Positions 8,381-28,123 of a stretch of 32,168 nt of DNA are shown here, in pieces. The stretch is from Armatimonadota bacterium. GTDB taxonomy: Bacteria; Armatimonadota; SYMT01; JACQGL01. Each line of letters begins with the position of its first letter. Position 1 is the first letter of the stretch. The position numbers were made by a program, and so were the translations under genes. Below the pieces are notes generated by a model. The model did no database searches, was not told the DNA's origin, and worked only from the letters and a program-made list of their open reading frames with translations. Location of the stretch: the NCBI GenBank assembly GCA_016199525.1, contig JACQGL010000023.1:1-32168 (forward strand), given 5' to 3'.

Positions 8381-11080
8381 ATGCGCACCCATCAGTCCCT
8401 GAGATGTTGGTGGGGCATCCTCTTCACGGGCGCCCTGCTGATCCTGCTCACCCGCTATGCCAGCGCCATCGGTCCGGACGCCTTCGGCTACGAGGCGACG
8501 ACGGTACCTTACAGCTTCGAGGATATCTCTACGACGGGAACCCAGGGGCTGTCGAACAATGATGACGCCTACATCAGCGCTCCCATCGGGTTCGACTTCA
8601 GCTTCTACGGCGTTTCACGCTCGACGATCTACATCAGCACCAACGGCCTGTTGTCGTTCGAGAGTGGCAACGCGTCGCCCTCTAACGCAAGCTTTCAGAC
8701 ATCCGCTCTCTCTCCTAACGTGCCCACGATCGCCCCTCTCTGGGACGACTGGGTGACCTGGTGGTCCTGGTACGACGCGGTCTACTACAAGACCGTCGGC
8801 TCTCCTGGTAACCGGCGGTTCATCGTCCAGTGGCACGTGGTCAGTGGCTATTACTCGTCTCCCAGTACCGTCACCTTCCAGGCGGTGCTCTACGAGGGGA
8901 GCAACCACATCCGCTTCAGCTACCTGGATACATACTCGGGCGACTTCCGCAGCTCGGGCGGCTCGGCGACAGTGGGCATCCGCGATACGAGCGGGCAGTC
9001 CAACGGGCGGAATCTGCAGTGGTCGCACCAGCAGCCGGTCATCGCCAGCCAAACAGCGATCCTCTTCTCCTGCGCGGTCGAACCCATCGCGGTCAATGAC
9101 GCCTACGCGACGCTGCCGAACAGAACCCTGACCGTAGCCGCCCCGGGCGTGCTGGGCAATGACATTCCGGGCTGCGGCCCCCCCAGCCCGCTCACCGCCT
9201 TCCTGGTGGTGGGCCCGTCGCAGGGTGTTCTGGTCTTTAACCCCGACGGGTCGTTCTCCTACACGCCGAACGCCGGGGCCACCGGCACGGACAGCTTCAC
9301 CTACAGAGCCAACAACGGGTTGGTGGACAGCAACGTGGCCACCGTCACCATTAGCATCGCTGTCACCCTCGGCATGGTGGCGGATAACACCTGGAGGGCC
9401 GCGACTGTGTTTGATGCGGATAGCGGCTTCCTGCTGGGCACGGTCTTCCTGCCGACCACGGGCTATCCCGTTGGCGACTGCGCCATCACAGCAGACGGGA
9501 CGCTCGGCTTCGTCACCGACTTCCAGTGGCGGGTGTGGGTCCTCGATCTGACGAGCGTTCCCCCGCGGCTGGCCAGTGGGACAAACCCGATCCCTATCTC
9601 GAACGTCGGTGAAGACCTCGCGATCACCCCGGACCAGAGGTACCTGGTCGTGTGTGATGGGAGCCAGCCCGCGCCGGTCGCGGTGGTGGACATCGCCACC
9701 CGGACCCAGATCAGCACCTTCTACACGGGTACGGCCAGCAACTCGATCGATGTCTGCCAGGATGGCTCCGTGCTGGTTACGTCGGCCCCAACCTCTAGGG
9801 CGCAACGGCTGATGATCGACAGCACCGGCAACCTCACGGACACGGGCGAAGTGCTCAGCGGCCTGTACGGCCCAATGAACATCTACGGCGCACCCGGCAG
9901 CGCGACCGGGCTGGTGGTGAGCTACTACACGCGGGATGTTCGCTCGTTCGCGATCCCGTGGCTTTCGCCGATCGCCGCCCGCGCTCTCACCGGGGCCTAC
10001 GGCATCTGCGGGGCAGTTAACGCGTGGGGCAATCGGGTGTACGGGCGCAGCAACTCTCCGGGAGCGGTGGATGCGTTCGCTTACGACGCGGCCACCGGTG
10101 CGCTCGGGGCCACGCCGCTCTTCACGATCCCGATTGCCAATACCGATGCGTTCTTTGGCATCGATCAGCTGGCGCTGCATCCGAACGGCAGGAAGCTATA
10201 TGTGCCCCAACCGAGCGCTCTTAAGATACACGACGCCAGCACGGGCGCGTTGCTGGGATCGATCACGGCGCCGGGGATCGCCCTGCCTAAGGGTGTGGCG
10301 ATCCAGCCCAACCGGCCGCCCACAGCCACCTGTCCGCCTGCCCGCGTGGTGGAATGCACCTCCCCGGTAGGGGCTGAGGTGACGACAACGGGGTCCGTCG
10401 GGGATGTGGATGGCGACGCGTTAACCCTTACGTGGCAGGTAGACGGCAGCGTGGTGCGGGTGGACAACGTGCCCGCCAGCGGCCCCCCGACCGCGGCCAG
10501 CGTGTCCCTTACGCGCACCTACTGCCTGGGCACGCACAGCATCGAGGCCATTGTGTCTGATGGTGCCACCGCTCCCGTGCGCTGTGTGACCACGCTAACC
10601 GTCCAGGACACCACCGCGCCCACGGTCAGCTGTTCGGTGGGTACGTCGATGCTCTGGCCGCCGAACCACAAGCTCGTCAATGTCGGCCTGAGCGTGACGG
10701 CAACAGACGCGTGCGATACGGACCCGACGATCGTGGTGGAGCAGGTCTGCAGCAACGTAGACGACGAGGAGCAGACCGGCGACGGCTGCCACGCGCCTGA
10801 CGCGAAGGACGTCGCGCCTGGCACCCTCCGGCTACGCGCCGAACGCCAGGGGAACAGCGCCGGGCGCTTCTATCTGATCGCTGTCTCTGCCACAGACGAC
10901 TCGGGCAACGTGGGCTACGCCTTCGAGACGGTCTGTGTATCGAAGAGCGAGAGCCAGGCGGACATCGATGCCATCCACGCGGCAGCGGCGGCAGCCAAGG
11001 TGTACTACGAGGCGACCGGCGGCCCGCCGGATGGATGTATCCACGTGGGGGACGGCCCCGTCATCGGACCAAAGCAGTAA
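8381..11080 (+). CDS. Secreted mosaic protein: NIDO-like, cadherin-like, propeller-like and HYR-like domains
   Basis: An 899-residue exported protein with a signal peptide (hydrophobic core GILFTGALLILLT, cleavage near ASA, residue 29). Residues about 40-230 resemble a nidogen-type (NIDO) domain: YISTNGLLSFESG, then APLWDDW, then NRRFIVQWHVV. Residues about 237-325 form a VCBS/cadherin-like repeat (VNDAYATLPNRTLTV, VLGNDI, NPDGSFSYTPNAGATGTDSFTY). Residues about 330-640 have repeated WD/NHL-like strands suggesting a beta-propeller. Residues about 645-742 and 743-880 look like Ig/HYR-type modules (DTTAPTVSC, LWPPNHKLV, ATDACD) with several Cys. There is no membrane anchor or sorting signal at the C-terminus. 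ATG 8381 follows a clear GGAGG (8370-8374). It is likely a surface or matrix adhesin-like protein, probably controlled by the divergent SARP. Ligand unknown. Confidence 0.87.
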   Translation: MRTHQSLRCWWGILFTGALLILLTRYASAIGPDAFGYEATTVPYSFEDISTTGTQGLSNNDDAYISAPIGFDFSFYGVSRSTIYISTNGLLSFESGNASPSNASFQTSALSPNVPTIAPLWDDWVTWWSWYDAVYYKTVGSPGNRRFIVQWHVVSGYYSSPSTVTFQAVLYEGSNHIRFSYLDTYSGDFRSSGGSATVGIRDTSGQSNGRNLQWSHQQPVIASQTAILFSCAVEPIAVNDAYATLPNRTLTVAAPGVLGNDIPGCGPPSPLTAFLVVGPSQGVLVFNPDGSFSYTPNAGATGTDSFTYRANNGLVDSNVATVTISIAVTLGMVADNTWRAATVFDADSGFLLGTVFLPTTGYPVGDCAITADGTLGFVTDFQWRVWVLDLTSVPPRLASGTNPIPISNVGEDLAITPDQRYLVVCDGSQPAPVAVVDIATRTQISTFYTGTASNSIDVCQDGSVLVTSAPTSRAQRLMIDSTGNLTDTGEVLSGLYGPMNIYGAPGSATGLVVSYYTRDVRSFAIPWLSPIAARALTGAYGICGAVNAWGNRVYGRSNSPGAVDAFAYDAATGALGATPLFTIPIANTDAFFGIDQLALHPNGRKLYVPQPSALKIHDASTGALLGSITAPGIALPKGVAIQPNRPPTATCPPARVVECTSPVGAEVTTTGSVGDVDGDALTLTWQVDGSVVRVDNVPASGPPTAASVSLTRTYCLGTHSIEAIVSDGATAPVRCVTTLTVQDTTAPTVSCSVGTSMLWPPNHKLVNVGLSVTATDACDTDPTIVVEQVCSNVDDEEQTGDGCHAPDAKDVAPGTLRLRAERQGNSAGRFYLIAVSATDDSGNVGYAFETVCVSKSESQADIDAIHAAAAAAKVYYEATGGPPDGCIHVGDGPVIGPKQ

Positions 11081-14266: not shown

Positions 14267-16438
14267 CTAATTCCACACCGCGGGGGGCGTTTCTTCTTCC
14301 GCAGCGGCCAGCTCGCCTTCGGAGGGAGCGGGAACCTCAGCGACCACGGCGCGTACCACAGGATGGGCGACGTTCAACCGGCAATGGAGCGCGCCCCAGC
14401 CCTGTAACGGCAGCGGCCCCTCGTGATCCAGTTCCAGGATCCCCTCGTCGCGGGCGAGCGCGAACCAGGCAAGACGGATGGCCAGGTCCCGCGACTGCCA
14501 GCCCGCACCCAGCTCCTCATCTACCCGCGCCAGGGGCGCCCAGGTGCGAAACCGCTGCAGGCGCTGCACGGCACGAATGATCTGTGTGCGCAGAGCGAGC
14601 GTCTCTCGAACGAGCGGATCATCGCGGTTCAGATAGCAGCCGGTAGTGGCGTGCTCTTTCTGTGGGTTGGGATAACTCTCCGTGACCAGCGCGCCCCGGC
14701 TCTGAAGGCGCCGCAGGACCTCCTGGAGTTCGTCGCGACCCAGGTTCTGGAAGCCGCGGCGCAACGTGCTCATGGCCATCCAGGGCTTCTGGGTGCGAAT
14801 CAGGAAGTGATCGATGGCGAGAATGGTGCGCTCGGGTGCCAGGCGAATCCCCTCCTCCGTCCTCCGGACGATGGAGCTGACCACGGGGTGCTCCTCGTTG
14901 AGCCGGAGCGCCGTGACAGGGAAGTCGGGGTTCTCCGCGTTCGGCTCCTTGGACATGCGCAGCGCCCCATCCTGGATGAGGAAGTTTAACCACTCGTCGA
15001 TTGCCTGCTCGTCCAGATGATGGGGCGGCCCACCCAGCCACTGATCGCGGAGCAAGACGTTCCGCAGCAGTTTGAAGCTGACCCAGGGCATCTTCCGCAG
15101 CATCTGGTAGAGCAGGCGGACTATCCTCTCCGGGACCTCGGTGGCAGGACGCGCCAGGGGATGCTCGGGGTTGGAGCGGCAAACGGTAACCCGCAGGGGC
15201 GGATCCCCCCGGCGAACCTCGTGCTCGGCGTGCAGCATCCCTTCCGCCTTGGCGCGGTTCAGCCACATCATCGCGTTGCTGGGCGTGGGACCGAACTCTT
15301 CCTGAGTGGCGAGGTAGCCTGCCAGGCGCTTGAAGGCCACCCTGGGCCACTGCTGCTCGCGTAGGTAGCGGTCGGTGTAGTAAAGGAGGCGAACCCAGGT
15401 ACTCAAAGCGCTACCCACCACCGGGGTTGCCATCTCCTGGGGGGAACGAGGGGCCTCCTCAACGGGCGCTTCTTCACGGGCGGGCTGCACCCCCGGCTCT
15501 CTCGCCTCCGTCGCGACCAGCGAGCGCCGGTCCAACAGGTGCGTCAGCGGCGTGGTGAAGCCATCGATCCGGCCCGCTTCGGGCACGGGCCATTCTGCGG
15601 GAGTCCACAGCACCACCCGCTTCCCCTGCCGGCGAGCGGCGTGCGCCAGATGGGGCAAACCGTCGTGCCATCCGGCGATGATCCACGTGGCGGGAGCATC
15701 CGGCCTCTCCAGCAGCTCTTGGAGATCGCCCATCAGCGTATCTTCAGCCAAGCTGGCACGACCGGACGGCTGGTAGCGGACCTCAATAGTGGCACGCACC
15801 CAGTCTGGCAGATCAACGTGCGCCAGGGACACAGTCTCCGTGGTCCCAGGGTGCCAGGGCGCGTAGAAGCGCGCCATAGCCACATCCCCGACGGCGCTAG
15901 CCGTGCGCAGGAGGGCGGCGGCCACTGCCTGAGGCGCCGCGGGCACTCCCAGCCGCCGCAGCCCTTCCGCCACCGTTTGCCACTCCACGAACAGACCCAG
16001 AGCATCCGCCGTGAGATGCGACAGCACGTCTTCCAGGGAGGTGACCCACGCACCCTCAGGCAGCTCCTGCGACTCCGGAATTGCCCCCCCGGTGCAGCAC
16101 AGGTGGCAGTGTGCCGTCGGACTGGCCCCCAGCCAGGCAACCGCGCGCTGTGGTTCCATCACCAGCGTCACGGCGCGGCACTCCTCTAGCAGGCGCGGCA
16201 CGATCTCTGCCGCCTCCTCTGGCGGCCGCAACTGGAAGCCACACCGCTGCAGCGGCTCCGCGGCCAGCGCGTCGCGGCCCTCCCAATCGCCAAATGCCAC
16301 CGCGTGGTGCGTGCCGGCGTACTGATACGTCTGCCGGCGCAACACCTGCGCCAGCCGCATCGGAGTGACCAGGTGACCGGTGGATTGCACAAACGAGACA
16401 GTATCGCTCCAATAGACGACAAGCAATGTGCTAACCAT
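14267..16438 (-). CDS. Tandem degenerate NYN-domain protein with four winged-helix-like repeats
   Basis: A 723-residue cytoplasmic protein. ATG 16438 was chosen for GGAGGGATAAA directly upstream; ten in-frame upstream codons lack a site. Residues 3-139 look like a first NYN (PIN-like nuclease) domain: LLVVYWSDTVSF, FGDWEGR, with D12 and D51. Residues about 144-303 look like a second: LGLFVEWQTVAEGLRRLG, MARFYAPW, EDTLMGDLQELL, TWIIAGWHDGLPHLAHAARRQGK. Both lack several acidic residues of active NYN nucleases. A CHLCC cluster is at 111-115. After a Pro/Glu-rich linker (310-340) come four helical repeats (about 344-428, 436-520, 534-612, 618-697), each ending in a (C/L)xLNxxHPxV-like signature. 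They resemble winged helices of the OST-HTH/LOTUS kind. NYN plus OST-HTH usually means RNA binding or processing; here binding seems more likely than cutting. No operon partner is evident. Confidence 0.8.
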   Translation of the reverse strand: MVSTLLVVYWSDTVSFVQSTGHLVTPMRLAQVLRRQTYQYAGTHHAVAFGDWEGRDALAAEPLQRCGFQLRPPEEAAEIVPRLLEECRAVTLVMEPQRAVAWLGASPTAHCHLCCTGGAIPESQELPEGAWVTSLEDVLSHLTADALGLFVEWQTVAEGLRRLGVPAAPQAVAAALLRTASAVGDVAMARFYAPWHPGTTETVSLAHVDLPDWVRATIEVRYQPSGRASLAEDTLMGDLQELLERPDAPATWIIAGWHDGLPHLAHAARRQGKRVVLWTPAEWPVPEAGRIDGFTTPLTHLLDRRSLVATEAREPGVQPAREEAPVEEAPRSPQEMATPVVGSALSTWVRLLYYTDRYLREQQWPRVAFKRLAGYLATQEEFGPTPSNAMMWLNRAKAEGMLHAEHEVRRGDPPLRVTVCRSNPEHPLARPATEVPERIVRLLYQMLRKMPWVSFKLLRNVLLRDQWLGGPPHHLDEQAIDEWLNFLIQDGALRMSKEPNAENPDFPVTALRLNEEHPVVSSIVRRTEEGIRLAPERTILAIDHFLIRTQKPWMAMSTLRRGFQNLGRDELQEVLRRLQSRGALVTESYPNPQKEHATTGCYLNRDDPLVRETLALRTQIIRAVQRLQRFRTWAPLARVDEELGAGWQSRDLAIRLAWFALARDEGILELDHEGPLPLQGWGALHCRLNVAHPVVRAVVAEVPAPSEGELAAAEEETPPAVWN

Positions 16439-17173
16439 TTTATCCCTCCGCCGGGCCAAGGACGTGCCCACACGGCATTTCCTCGCACTACGTGGGGAGA
16501 GTTGTCGGCGACTGGGAGCGGCTCACCTTCCGCCAGGGCCCGCTGTCCGGCGGCACAGGCAGCCGTGCCGCCCGCATGGCTCCTGTTCGCCCCGGCTCTC
16601 CCTCCGGGCGATGGGCACTCCGACTGTATCGGGATTCGCCGGCGGGCGCGGCCCGTGCTGGTCCCTTTACTGGGGGACACCCCCCTTTTCACCGTAACTA
16701 CTGCGGCAATCCTGCCAATCCTGGGGCCGGAGCGGATTCTTTTGCCCGGGTACCCGGCGGCTCGGACCCGGTACCATCGCTCCTGCCGGGAAGTGAAACC
16801 CGTCTTAGCCAGGCAAGCATTCAAGTGCTTTGGCGCTCGGTATTGGGCGCGGTGATGGCGGGTTGGGAAGGCATTGGGATTGCAGAATGCGGCGTGCGAA
16901 CGTACGCCCTCGTGCCGCGCGCCGCAGGAATCCGGCCCGCCCTCGCGCAACCGGAACACAAACCAACCGCCACCCGATATGGAGCAGACTCTGCTGGTAC
17001 GGCAGAGCATCGATCGCTCGGCAGCCAGCAGGCAGGGGGAGGACGGGGAGCGATAGGCGTTCCGAAGCCGGGATGCGTGGGCGTGCGGGTGATAAGCGCC
17101 GGTCTCTCATCCTCCTATTATCTCACCTCCCCATACGTCCGTACAATAGCGTGCAGCTAGCGGAGATCAGGCC
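16439..17173. other. 735-bp spacer without a supported gene
   Basis: Several open frames cross this stretch on both strands, but none has a ribosome site, known motif or protein-like composition. It holds a small hairpin (GTCCC/GGGGAC, 16661-16678) followed by a short CCCCTTTT run, and an imperfect GGCGT/ACGCC stem near 16892-16909. No tRNA or familiar riboswitch consensus is visible. It should contain the promoter of the NYN-type gene (leftward) and of the PPC-domain gene (rightward). Confidence 0.45.
17118..17147 (+). promoter_or_regulatory. Possible promoter of the PPC-domain gene
   Basis: TACAAT (17142-17147) matches the -10 consensus at 5 of 6 positions, with TTATCT 18 bp upstream as a weak -35. 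It lies 26 bp before the ATG at 17174, leaving a short leader that holds the GGAG ribosome site. Confidence 0.35.
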
Positions 17174-17872
17174 ATGCAGTGGTTTCGAGGCGCCACGCCG
17201 CTGGAGGTGATCGCCCTGCGGGTGGACGCAGGCGAAGAGGTGCGGCCCGCCCTGGCGCGCCTGGCCCGCGACCTCCCGCTGGCCGCGGGCAGCGTGCTGA
17301 GCGGCCACGGGACCCTGGAGCACTTCGTGCTGGAGGTCCCCGCGACCGTCACCTGGCCCCCGGGGATCCATTCTGTGGAGAAGCAGGGCGCGACGCAGAT
17401 TATTTCCGCCCAGGGACTGATCGCCAACGGGGAGGTGGACGTGACGTTGTGCGTGGCACGGCGCAACGAGATCTACGCCGGCCGCGTGCTGGATGGGACG
17501 AAAGCGCTCTTCGGGGCCGAATTCGTGATCCTGCGCGCGGGTAATACGCGCTGGACCTACGCCAGCCACCCGCAGACCGGCGTGCCGGTGTTCGAAGCGG
17601 TGACCTCAGGGCCGCTGGCACAGGTCACACTGATGGGACGGCCGATAGATCCTGCTGCTGCCGCCCTCGTGCCGCCCGCATTGATCCGCAAGCATCTGGC
17701 GCTGCCCGTGGCCCGTACTGGCGATACGCTGGTGCTGGCGATGGCAGACCCTAATAATCCGTTCGCCATCGACGACTTTCGCCACGCCACGCGCCTGCGC
17801 ATCCAGCCGGTAAGCGTCGACCCTCGCGAGCTGATGGCAGCCATCGAGCAGGTATTGGCGGGGAGGGGATAA
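17174..17872 (+). CDS. PPC/DUF296-domain protein fused to a GspE_N-like module
   Basis: A 232-residue protein from ATG 17174, with GGAG about 10 nt upstream. Residues about 5-122 form a PPC (DUF296) domain: EEVRPALARLARDL, AGSVLSGHGTLEHFVLEV, GATQIISAQGLIANGEVDVTL, AGRVLDGTKALFGAEFVIL. The HLH metal-site motif common in bacterial members is VDV here (88-90), so the usual zinc site appears lost. Residues about 160-228 match the second half of the N-terminal domain of type II secretion/pilus ATPases (GspE_N/MshEN): ALVPPALIRKHLALPVA, LAMADPNNPFAIDDFRHAT, VDPRELMAAIEQVL. The RLG-containing c-di-GMP motif that normally precedes this is absent. The two modules together are unusual. There is no secretion gene nearby. 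PPC proteins are known as DNA-associated in plants; the bacterial role is unclear. Confidence 0.85.
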   Translation: MQWFRGATPLEVIALRVDAGEEVRPALARLARDLPLAAGSVLSGHGTLEHFVLEVPATVTWPPGIHSVEKQGATQIISAQGLIANGEVDVTLCVARRNEIYAGRVLDGTKALFGAEFVILRAGNTRWTYASHPQTGVPVFEAVTSGPLAQVTLMGRPIDPAAAALVPPALIRKHLALPVARTGDTLVLAMADPNNPFAIDDFRHATRLRIQPVSVDPRELMAAIEQVLAGRG

Positions 17873-25158: not shown

Positions 25159-27036
25159 ATGTCTGATCTCGTGGGAGTGGTCCCGTCGCCGGGTAAGCAA
25201 CCGGTTGACTCGATCCTGGAAGAGGTGGACACAGTTGCCGTCCGCTTTGCCGGCGACTCGGGCGACGGGATGCAGCTCACGGGCACCCAGTTCACCAACG
25301 CATCCGCGGTGTTGGGGAATGATGTGAGCACCCTCCCTGACTTTCCGGCGGAAATTCGGGCCCCGGCAGGCACGCTCGCGGGCGTGAGCGGGTTCCAGGT
25401 CAGCATCTCCAGCCACGACATCTACACGCCCGGCGATGCTCCGCAGGTGCTGGTGGCGATGAACCCCGCCGCTCTGAAGGCCAACCTCCCTGATCTGGAG
25501 CCGGAGGGGACGATCATCGTCAACTCGGACAACTTCACCCCCCCGAATCTGAAGAAGGCGGGCTATGACAGCAACCCCGTAGAGGACGACTCCCTGCGCG
25601 GCCACCAGGTCATCGCTGTCCCGATCTCCACTCTGAACCGGAATGCGCTGGAGGACATTGAGGGCCTCTCCAACAAGGAGAAGGACCGCTGCCAGAACTT
25701 TTTCGCTCTCGGCCTGACGTTCTGGATGTACGACCGCACCCTGGACACAACGCTCAAGTGGATCCAGGAGAAATTCGAGCGGCGCCCAGAAGTCGCCGAA
25801 GCAAATGCCCGTGCCTTGAAGGCGGGCTACCATTACGGTGAGACGACCGAGGCGTTCCGCCATCGCTGCCGCGTGCCGCGCATGACCGTGCAGCCGGGGA
25901 CGTATCGCAAGCTCACCGGCAATGAGGCGATGGCCCTGGGGCTGGTTACCGCCGCCCGGCGGGCGGGGCAGACACTCTTCTACGGCAGCTATCCCATCAC
26001 CCCGGCCAGCGACATCCTTCACGAGCTGGCCGCGATGAAGAACTTCGACGTCCGCACCTTCCAGGCAGAAGACGAGATCGCCGCTATGGGCGCGGTTATC
26101 GGTGCGGCATTCGGGGGCGCGTTCGCGGTCACGGGCACCAGCGGGCCGGGCATCTGTCTCAAGAGCGAGGCGATGAACCTGGCGGTGGCCCTCGAACTGC
26201 CTATGGTAATCATCGATGTCCAGCGCGGCGGGCCCAGCACCGGCCTACCCACGAAGACCGAGCAAACGGACCTGCTGCAGGTGATGTTCGGCCGGAATGG
26301 GGAGAGCCCCATGCCGGTCCTTGCGCCGTGCGCGCCGGCCGACTGCTTTACGATGGCCATCGAGGCGTTCCGGCTCGCGGTGCGGGCGATGCACCCGGTC
26401 GTCGTCCTCTCCGATGGCTACCTGGCGAATAGCTCAGAGCCGTGGCGCATCCCTGATCCGGAGGAACTCCCCGCCATCGAAGTGCGCCACCGGACGGATC
26501 CCGAGGGGTTCTTCCCCTATATCCGCGACGAGGAGACGCTGGCCCGGCCGTGGGTGCTGCCGGGCACCCCCGGACTGGAGCACCGTATCGGCGGCCTGGG
26601 CAAGCAGGACGTCACCGGCTACGTCTCTTATGATCCGCAGGATCACGAGCACATGGTGAAGATCCAGGCGGAGAAGGTGGCGCGACTGGCGAACGCGATC
26701 CCCGAGCAGCCCGTCTTCGGGCCGGAGAAGGGCGACTTGCTGGTCGTGGGCTGGGGAAGCACCTTCGGGGCGATCCGCTCCGCGGTGATGGACGCGCAGA
26801 GCGCCGGAAAATCGGTGGCGCACGCGCATATCCGCTACCTGAACCCGTTCCCGCGCAACCTGGGTGAAGTGCTGAGCCGCTACCGGCAGGTCCTGGTGGC
26901 AGAGATGAATCTCGGCCAGCTGGCGATGCTGCTCAATGTGCGCTACGCGAGACGCGTTACCCAGCTGAACAAGGTGCAGGGGCGGCCGTTCAAGATCGCC
27001 GAGATTCTGCGCAAGATCAATGAAATAGTTCGCTAA
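25159..27036 (+). CDS. korA: 2-oxoacid:ferredoxin oxidoreductase, fused gamma-alpha subunit
   Basis: A 625-residue subunit of a two-subunit 2-oxoacid:ferredoxin oxidoreductase (2-oxoglutarate type by length and layout). Residues about 25-200 are the gamma domain, with [11 protein letters not shown] (32-42). Residues from about 240 are the alpha part, with [54 protein letters not shown] and [18 protein letters not shown]. The complex makes or consumes CoA thioesters using TPP and passes electrons to ferredoxin. ATG 25159 has AGGAGG about 11 nt upstream. KorB starts 34 bp downstream. No delta (ferredoxin-type) subunit is adjacent. The exact substrate (2-oxoglutarate, pyruvate or another) cannot be fixed from sequence alone. 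Confidence 0.93.
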
Positions 27037-27070
27037 TCACGCCCGGAAAGGCAGCAGGGAGAGAGAGCTG

Positions 27071-28119
<1,049 letters not shown>

Positions 28120-28123
<4 letters not shown>

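Follow-up and report, generated by a model that had tools for sequence, protein, structure and literature searches.

A predicted pseudonuclease with a winged-helix array

The stretch of DNA analyzed here (the window) is a 32,168-nucleotide contig (C100) from the 3.7-Mb draft genome (88% complete) of a bacterium of the phylum Armatimonadota. Our subject is a gene on its minus strand (14267..16438) that encodes a predicted pseudonuclease of 723 amino acids (aa); open frames homologous to it are present in three further genomes. The frame is unbroken over 723 codons from an ATG at 16438 to the stop at 14267. This ATG was taken as the start because a ribosome binding site, GGAGG, can be read 6 nt upstream of it (16445..16449, minus strand) and because the N-terminus of the protein aligns with the MRVTALFVD/MRTTALFVD of its relatives. 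Reading from the N-terminus, the protein has two degenerate NYN domains, NYN1 (aa 1–143, 16010..16438) and NYN2 (aa 144–285, 15584..16009), a linker (aa 286–341, 15416..15583), and four winged-helix repeats designated R1 (15146..15400), R2 (14873..15136), R3 (14603..14836), and R4 (14345..14590), all on the minus strand. The linker is of low confidence in the AlphaFold2 model, with pLDDT values mostly below 50 over its modeled part (aa 286–330). Pfam and NCBIfam scans gave no match to the protein, and at E 1 no Pfam domain of any kind, an RRM included, was detected.

Homology and catalytic residues of the NYN domains

Profile searches, profile–profile comparison with HHalign, and a family alignment of residues bear out the initial annotation of the window in its proposal of two tandem NYN-like domains that have lost acidic residues. 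A phylum NYN profile built without the window protein and without any NYN1 matched NYN2 at E 4e-6 and NYN1 at E 0.36. With the NYN1 domains of the relatives added, the corresponding values were 2.5e-8 and 0.004, and shuffled copies never scored below E 2 in the window-free search. In HHalign comparisons with NYN, NYN2 reached 97.4%, the three-member NYN1 family 98.3% over 144 columns, and the window NYN1 alone 37%. The window NYN1 is borderline by itself, and its assignment comes through its family: NYN1 of the relative in genome G003 matches the NYN profile directly (E 9.6e-9), which, together with the family HHalign result, argues that the window NYN1 is an NYN domain by descent. The Pfam NYN model (PF01936) matches all three relatives (1e-21 to 1e-31) and gave no match on the window protein. 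Structure prediction had been proposed as a check on a PIN/NYN-like fold. The AlphaFold2 model of this half has the beta-alpha order in both units and shows two Rossmann-like folds at moderate confidence (mean pLDDT 72). The Foldseek search with it was not discriminating, since generic two-Rossmann-domain proteins led and no PIN/NYN entry was among the 50 matches listed. Judged from sequence, both domains are homologous to NYN and are predicted to form a pseudonuclease.

When the family is aligned, the position of the beta1 Asp is occupied by Tyr9 of NYN1 and by Glu152 of NYN2, and that of the Asn of the EN motif by Thr155 of NYN2. NYN1 has a deletion in place of the KN..D motif, which reads RASLAED in NYN2, and neither domain has the GD motif. 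None of the catalytic acids can be recognized in NYN1, and the NYN2 alignment is uncertain by 1–2 residues because of neighboring acids. The beta1 Asp, KN..D, and GD motifs are retained in the NYN domain of the G018 relative and in NYN2 of the G017 and G003 relatives. For comparison, the acidic patch of human MARF1 consists of Asp358, 426, 427, and 452; a double Asp to Ala change in MARF1 greatly lowered activity, and the PIN domain of SMG5, where these residues are missing, is reported to be inactive (PMC6294520). That the window protein is nevertheless an active nuclease, working through Glu152 and shifted acids of NYN2 (SLAEDT, GD, HD), appears improbable to us: acids do persist close to three of the motifs, but the KN..D and GD motifs themselves are gone, and the MARF1 and SMG5 precedents speak against activity.

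The initial annotation had also described a CHLCC knuckle (aa 111–115, 16094..16108, minus strand). The letters are present, but the segment is strand 5 of NYN1. It is covered by an AlphaFold2 strand (aa 110–115) and aligns with the strand VRVWGLACS of the relatives, with which it has only one Cys in common, and no second Cys/His pair follows it. A zinc knuckle was rejected on these grounds.

A tree of NYN domains separates the seven from the window protein and its relatives from the other 25 (97/95) and groups the window NYN1 with the other NYN1 domains (85/84) on very long branches, which suggests a single old NYN duplication inside this protein family. Approximate ratios of nonsynonymous to synonymous substitution (dN/dS), calculated for the G017 and G003 pair, were 0.26 for NYN1, 0.09 for NYN2, and 0.11–0.22 for the repeats; these figures are rough because dS is near 1. 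They indicate that NYN1 of this pair is kept by purifying selection even though most of its catalytic residues are gone.

A family of winged helices distinct from OST-HTH

AlphaFold2 modeled the C-terminal half at good confidence (mean pLDDT 81.8) as four successive units of a helix, a short strand, two helices, and a hairpin, such that each of the four repeats has the winged-helix order of three helices and then a beta hairpin. Each closes with an LNxxHPxV-like motif that runs from the end of the final strand into the beginning of the following helix, and the repeats score 67–102 bits on a repeat profile that was built with them included; R4 is the most divergent. The four winged-helix-like repeats with this closing signature had been anticipated correctly. 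In contrast, checking them against OST-HTH profiles gave a negative answer. The Pfam OST-HTH model (PF12872) found no match in the repeats at E 10; it does detect such domains in 13 further genomes from the phylum. HHalign comparison with the phylum OST-HTH alignment gave a probability of 0.7% and a score of 13.4 (shuffled maximum, 12.8). OST-HTH identity was thus rejected, and the results point to a winged-helix family that matches no Pfam model here and is marked by its LNxxHPxV ending.

At the top of the Foldseek results for the repeats were mostly proteins with tandem winged helices from the RNA polymerase III system, including RPC62/C82-type and TFIIIC proteins (E 1e-6 to 1e-3). Like the window protein, these carry winged-helix arrays, but the TM-scores are low, they have no NYN domain, and they belong to eukaryotic polymerase III, so the likeness is a fold analogy only. 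The winged helices of RTP, MarR, and PadR are also in the list, and weak PDB profile matches to FeoC, Hop2, and Lrs14 were obtained. Such matches are what might be expected of a sequence-specific DNA-binding regulator in which the winged helices contact DNA and the NYN remnants serve as an interaction domain. We consider a regulator of this kind unlikely: relatives have the same winged helix-turn-helix (wHTH) joined to NYN domains whose catalytic motifs are intact, a combination that favors RNA as the substrate, and no conserved neighboring target gene was found.

Relatives in the phylum

Searches with the single protein covered 101 genomes and profile searches covered 291 genomes of the phylum. 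The former identified three relatives (G018, G017, and G003), and the latter confined the array to these genomes and the window. A single-protein scan of genome contigs gave no match, and an alignment-based scan recovered the three relatives. The G018 protein (609 aa) has one intact NYN domain and four repeats, while those of G017 and G003 have a degenerate NYN1 and an intact NYN2 ahead of the array; both NYN domains are degenerate in the window protein only. The fourth repeat of G017 and G003 is shorter and is missed by the repeat profile, so this copy is placed by the full-length alignment only. R1 to R4 of the window each have the same-numbered G018 repeat as their best partner (scores 131, 117, 138, and 81), and the array therefore predates that split. 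The repeat tree is weakly resolved, with R4 of the window on a long branch. Long branches for this repeat and for both NYN domains of the window might be taken as signs of a gene decaying without function. However, the 723-codon frame is intact and preceded by a ribosome binding site, GC content by codon position (0.73/0.49/0.80) is of the coding type, and all four repeats have been kept; we regard decay as quite improbable.

Single copies of the repeat were found behind other NYN domains. A 268-aa protein of genome G139 has an intact NYN domain and one copy at its end, detected at E 1.9e-24 when it was part of the profile and, independently, at E 1.6e-5 when it was not. NYN proteins of about 310 aa are common in the phylum, and their tails, ending in a VNWDHPDV-like motif, are distant versions of the repeat that can be aligned to its profile (HHalign 84.8%, score 35.6; maximum of 17.5 in 100 column shuffles). 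Both kinds share with the window protein an NYN domain followed by a wHTH-like domain with the LNxxHPxV or VNWDHPDV ending; unlike it, they have just a single intact NYN and a single wHTH.

Ten of the ~310-aa proteins with a winged-helix-like VNWDHPDV tail were noted (L019, L022, L024, L025, L028, L030, L032, L034, L037, and L038); members tested have no Pfam domain in the tail, which is possibly an unnamed family. A separate 998-aa protein (L026, 313–3306, minus strand) has an NYN domain at 458–606, an OST-HTH match just below the cutoff at 653–682, and a weak repeat match at 863–949. Viral contigs gave no match, plasmids gave matches to the NYN domain only (in Caballeronia/Eleftheria), and among defense families only weak, generic NYN matches were obtained, from the relatives.

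A promoter and terminator scan gave no signal beyond chance. Elsewhere in the window, a gene divergent from the pseudonuclease gene encodes a 232-aa protein with a PCC and an MshEN domain (17174–17872), an 899-aa protein has Ig/cadherin-like domains and a weak nidogen-like match (8381–11080), and adjacent genes encode the alpha and beta subunits of a 2-oxoacid:ferredoxin oxidoreductase (25159–28120).

Discussion

The combination of NYN and winged helix is itself already known, and the window protein is a variant within this class. Bacterial proteins in which an NYN-type nuclease is fused to one or two OST-HTH domains have been on record since 2010, and the DUF88 (LK-nuclease, NYN-like) proteins among them resemble the window protein in having an N-terminal NYN-type nuclease and a C-terminal wHTH (PMC2848206); the window protein differs in its two dead NYN domains and four non-OST wHTH modules. 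In eukaryotes, MARF1 (Limkain b1) combines NYN, RRM, and a LOTUS array. The human protein has one NYN and eight LOTUS domains (PMC6294520), which refutes a limit of one or two OST-HTH modules, as the initial annotation had given it for most NYN proteins, while the fly protein has no homology to nucleases and its LOTUS domains bind CCR4-NOT to silence mRNA (PMC6168497). The likeness to MARF1 thus lies in an NYN domain with a winged-helix array and in a nuclease-free form in the fly. The window protein, in contrast, has no RRM, its NYN is doubled and directly ahead of the array, and its repeats fail OST-HTH/LOTUS tests. Searches of a partial literature collection turned up no paper whose title or abstract deals with tandem NYN, and none joining Armatimonadota with NYN.

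We lean toward the view that the window protein is a pseudonuclease RNA-binding scaffold whose ancestor was an NYN endoribonuclease of the Armatimonadota with a wHTH at its C-terminus, and that it probably began as an enzyme that cuts RNA and came to bind RNA instead. The initial annotation had proposed a nucleic-acid-binding scaffold evolved from a nuclease. Its origin from an active nuclease is supported at the sequence level, because relatives keep an intact NYN; the scaffold function we infer. The proteins compared range from one NYN with one wHTH, through one NYN with four wHTH, to two NYN with the array. A plausible order of steps would lead from a single NYN-wHTH protein to the four-wHTH array and doubled NYN, then to a dead NYN1, and finally to a dead NYN2 as well. 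The four wHTH modules would bind structured or double-stranded RNA, and the dead NYN pair may persist as a platform that grips RNA or docks proteins. Such a scaffold could serve other nucleases by guiding or shielding RNA, and the intact single-NYN protein encoded on contig C237 of this genome would be one example of such a nuclease. The scaffold's putative mode of action is likened to the recruitment performed by fly MARF1, whose silencing of mRNA without nuclease homology indicates that the design can work.

Several points weigh against an RNA scaffold. Winged helices bind DNA or protein as well, the exchange of Asp for Glu in NYN2 might preserve residual metal binding, and the branches of both window NYN domains are very long in the tree. 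Moreover, no neighboring genes common to the window and the relatives were found in the stretches compared, so no partner is indicated.

More tentatively, the protein could be a bacterial counterpart of the MARF1 type that evolved independently, in which an NYN-wHTH RNase lineage doubled its nuclease, silenced one copy and then both, and acquired a four-module array of an unnamed winged-helix family as a non-catalytic RNA scaffold. Winged helices of the family with the LNxxHPxV ending follow NYN domains repeatedly across the phylum, and on one conserved array of this family a graded series is found in living bacteria, from an intact NYN, through a dead NYN1 with an intact NYN2, to both domains dead. 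The putative change from nuclease to scaffold is therefore directly testable.
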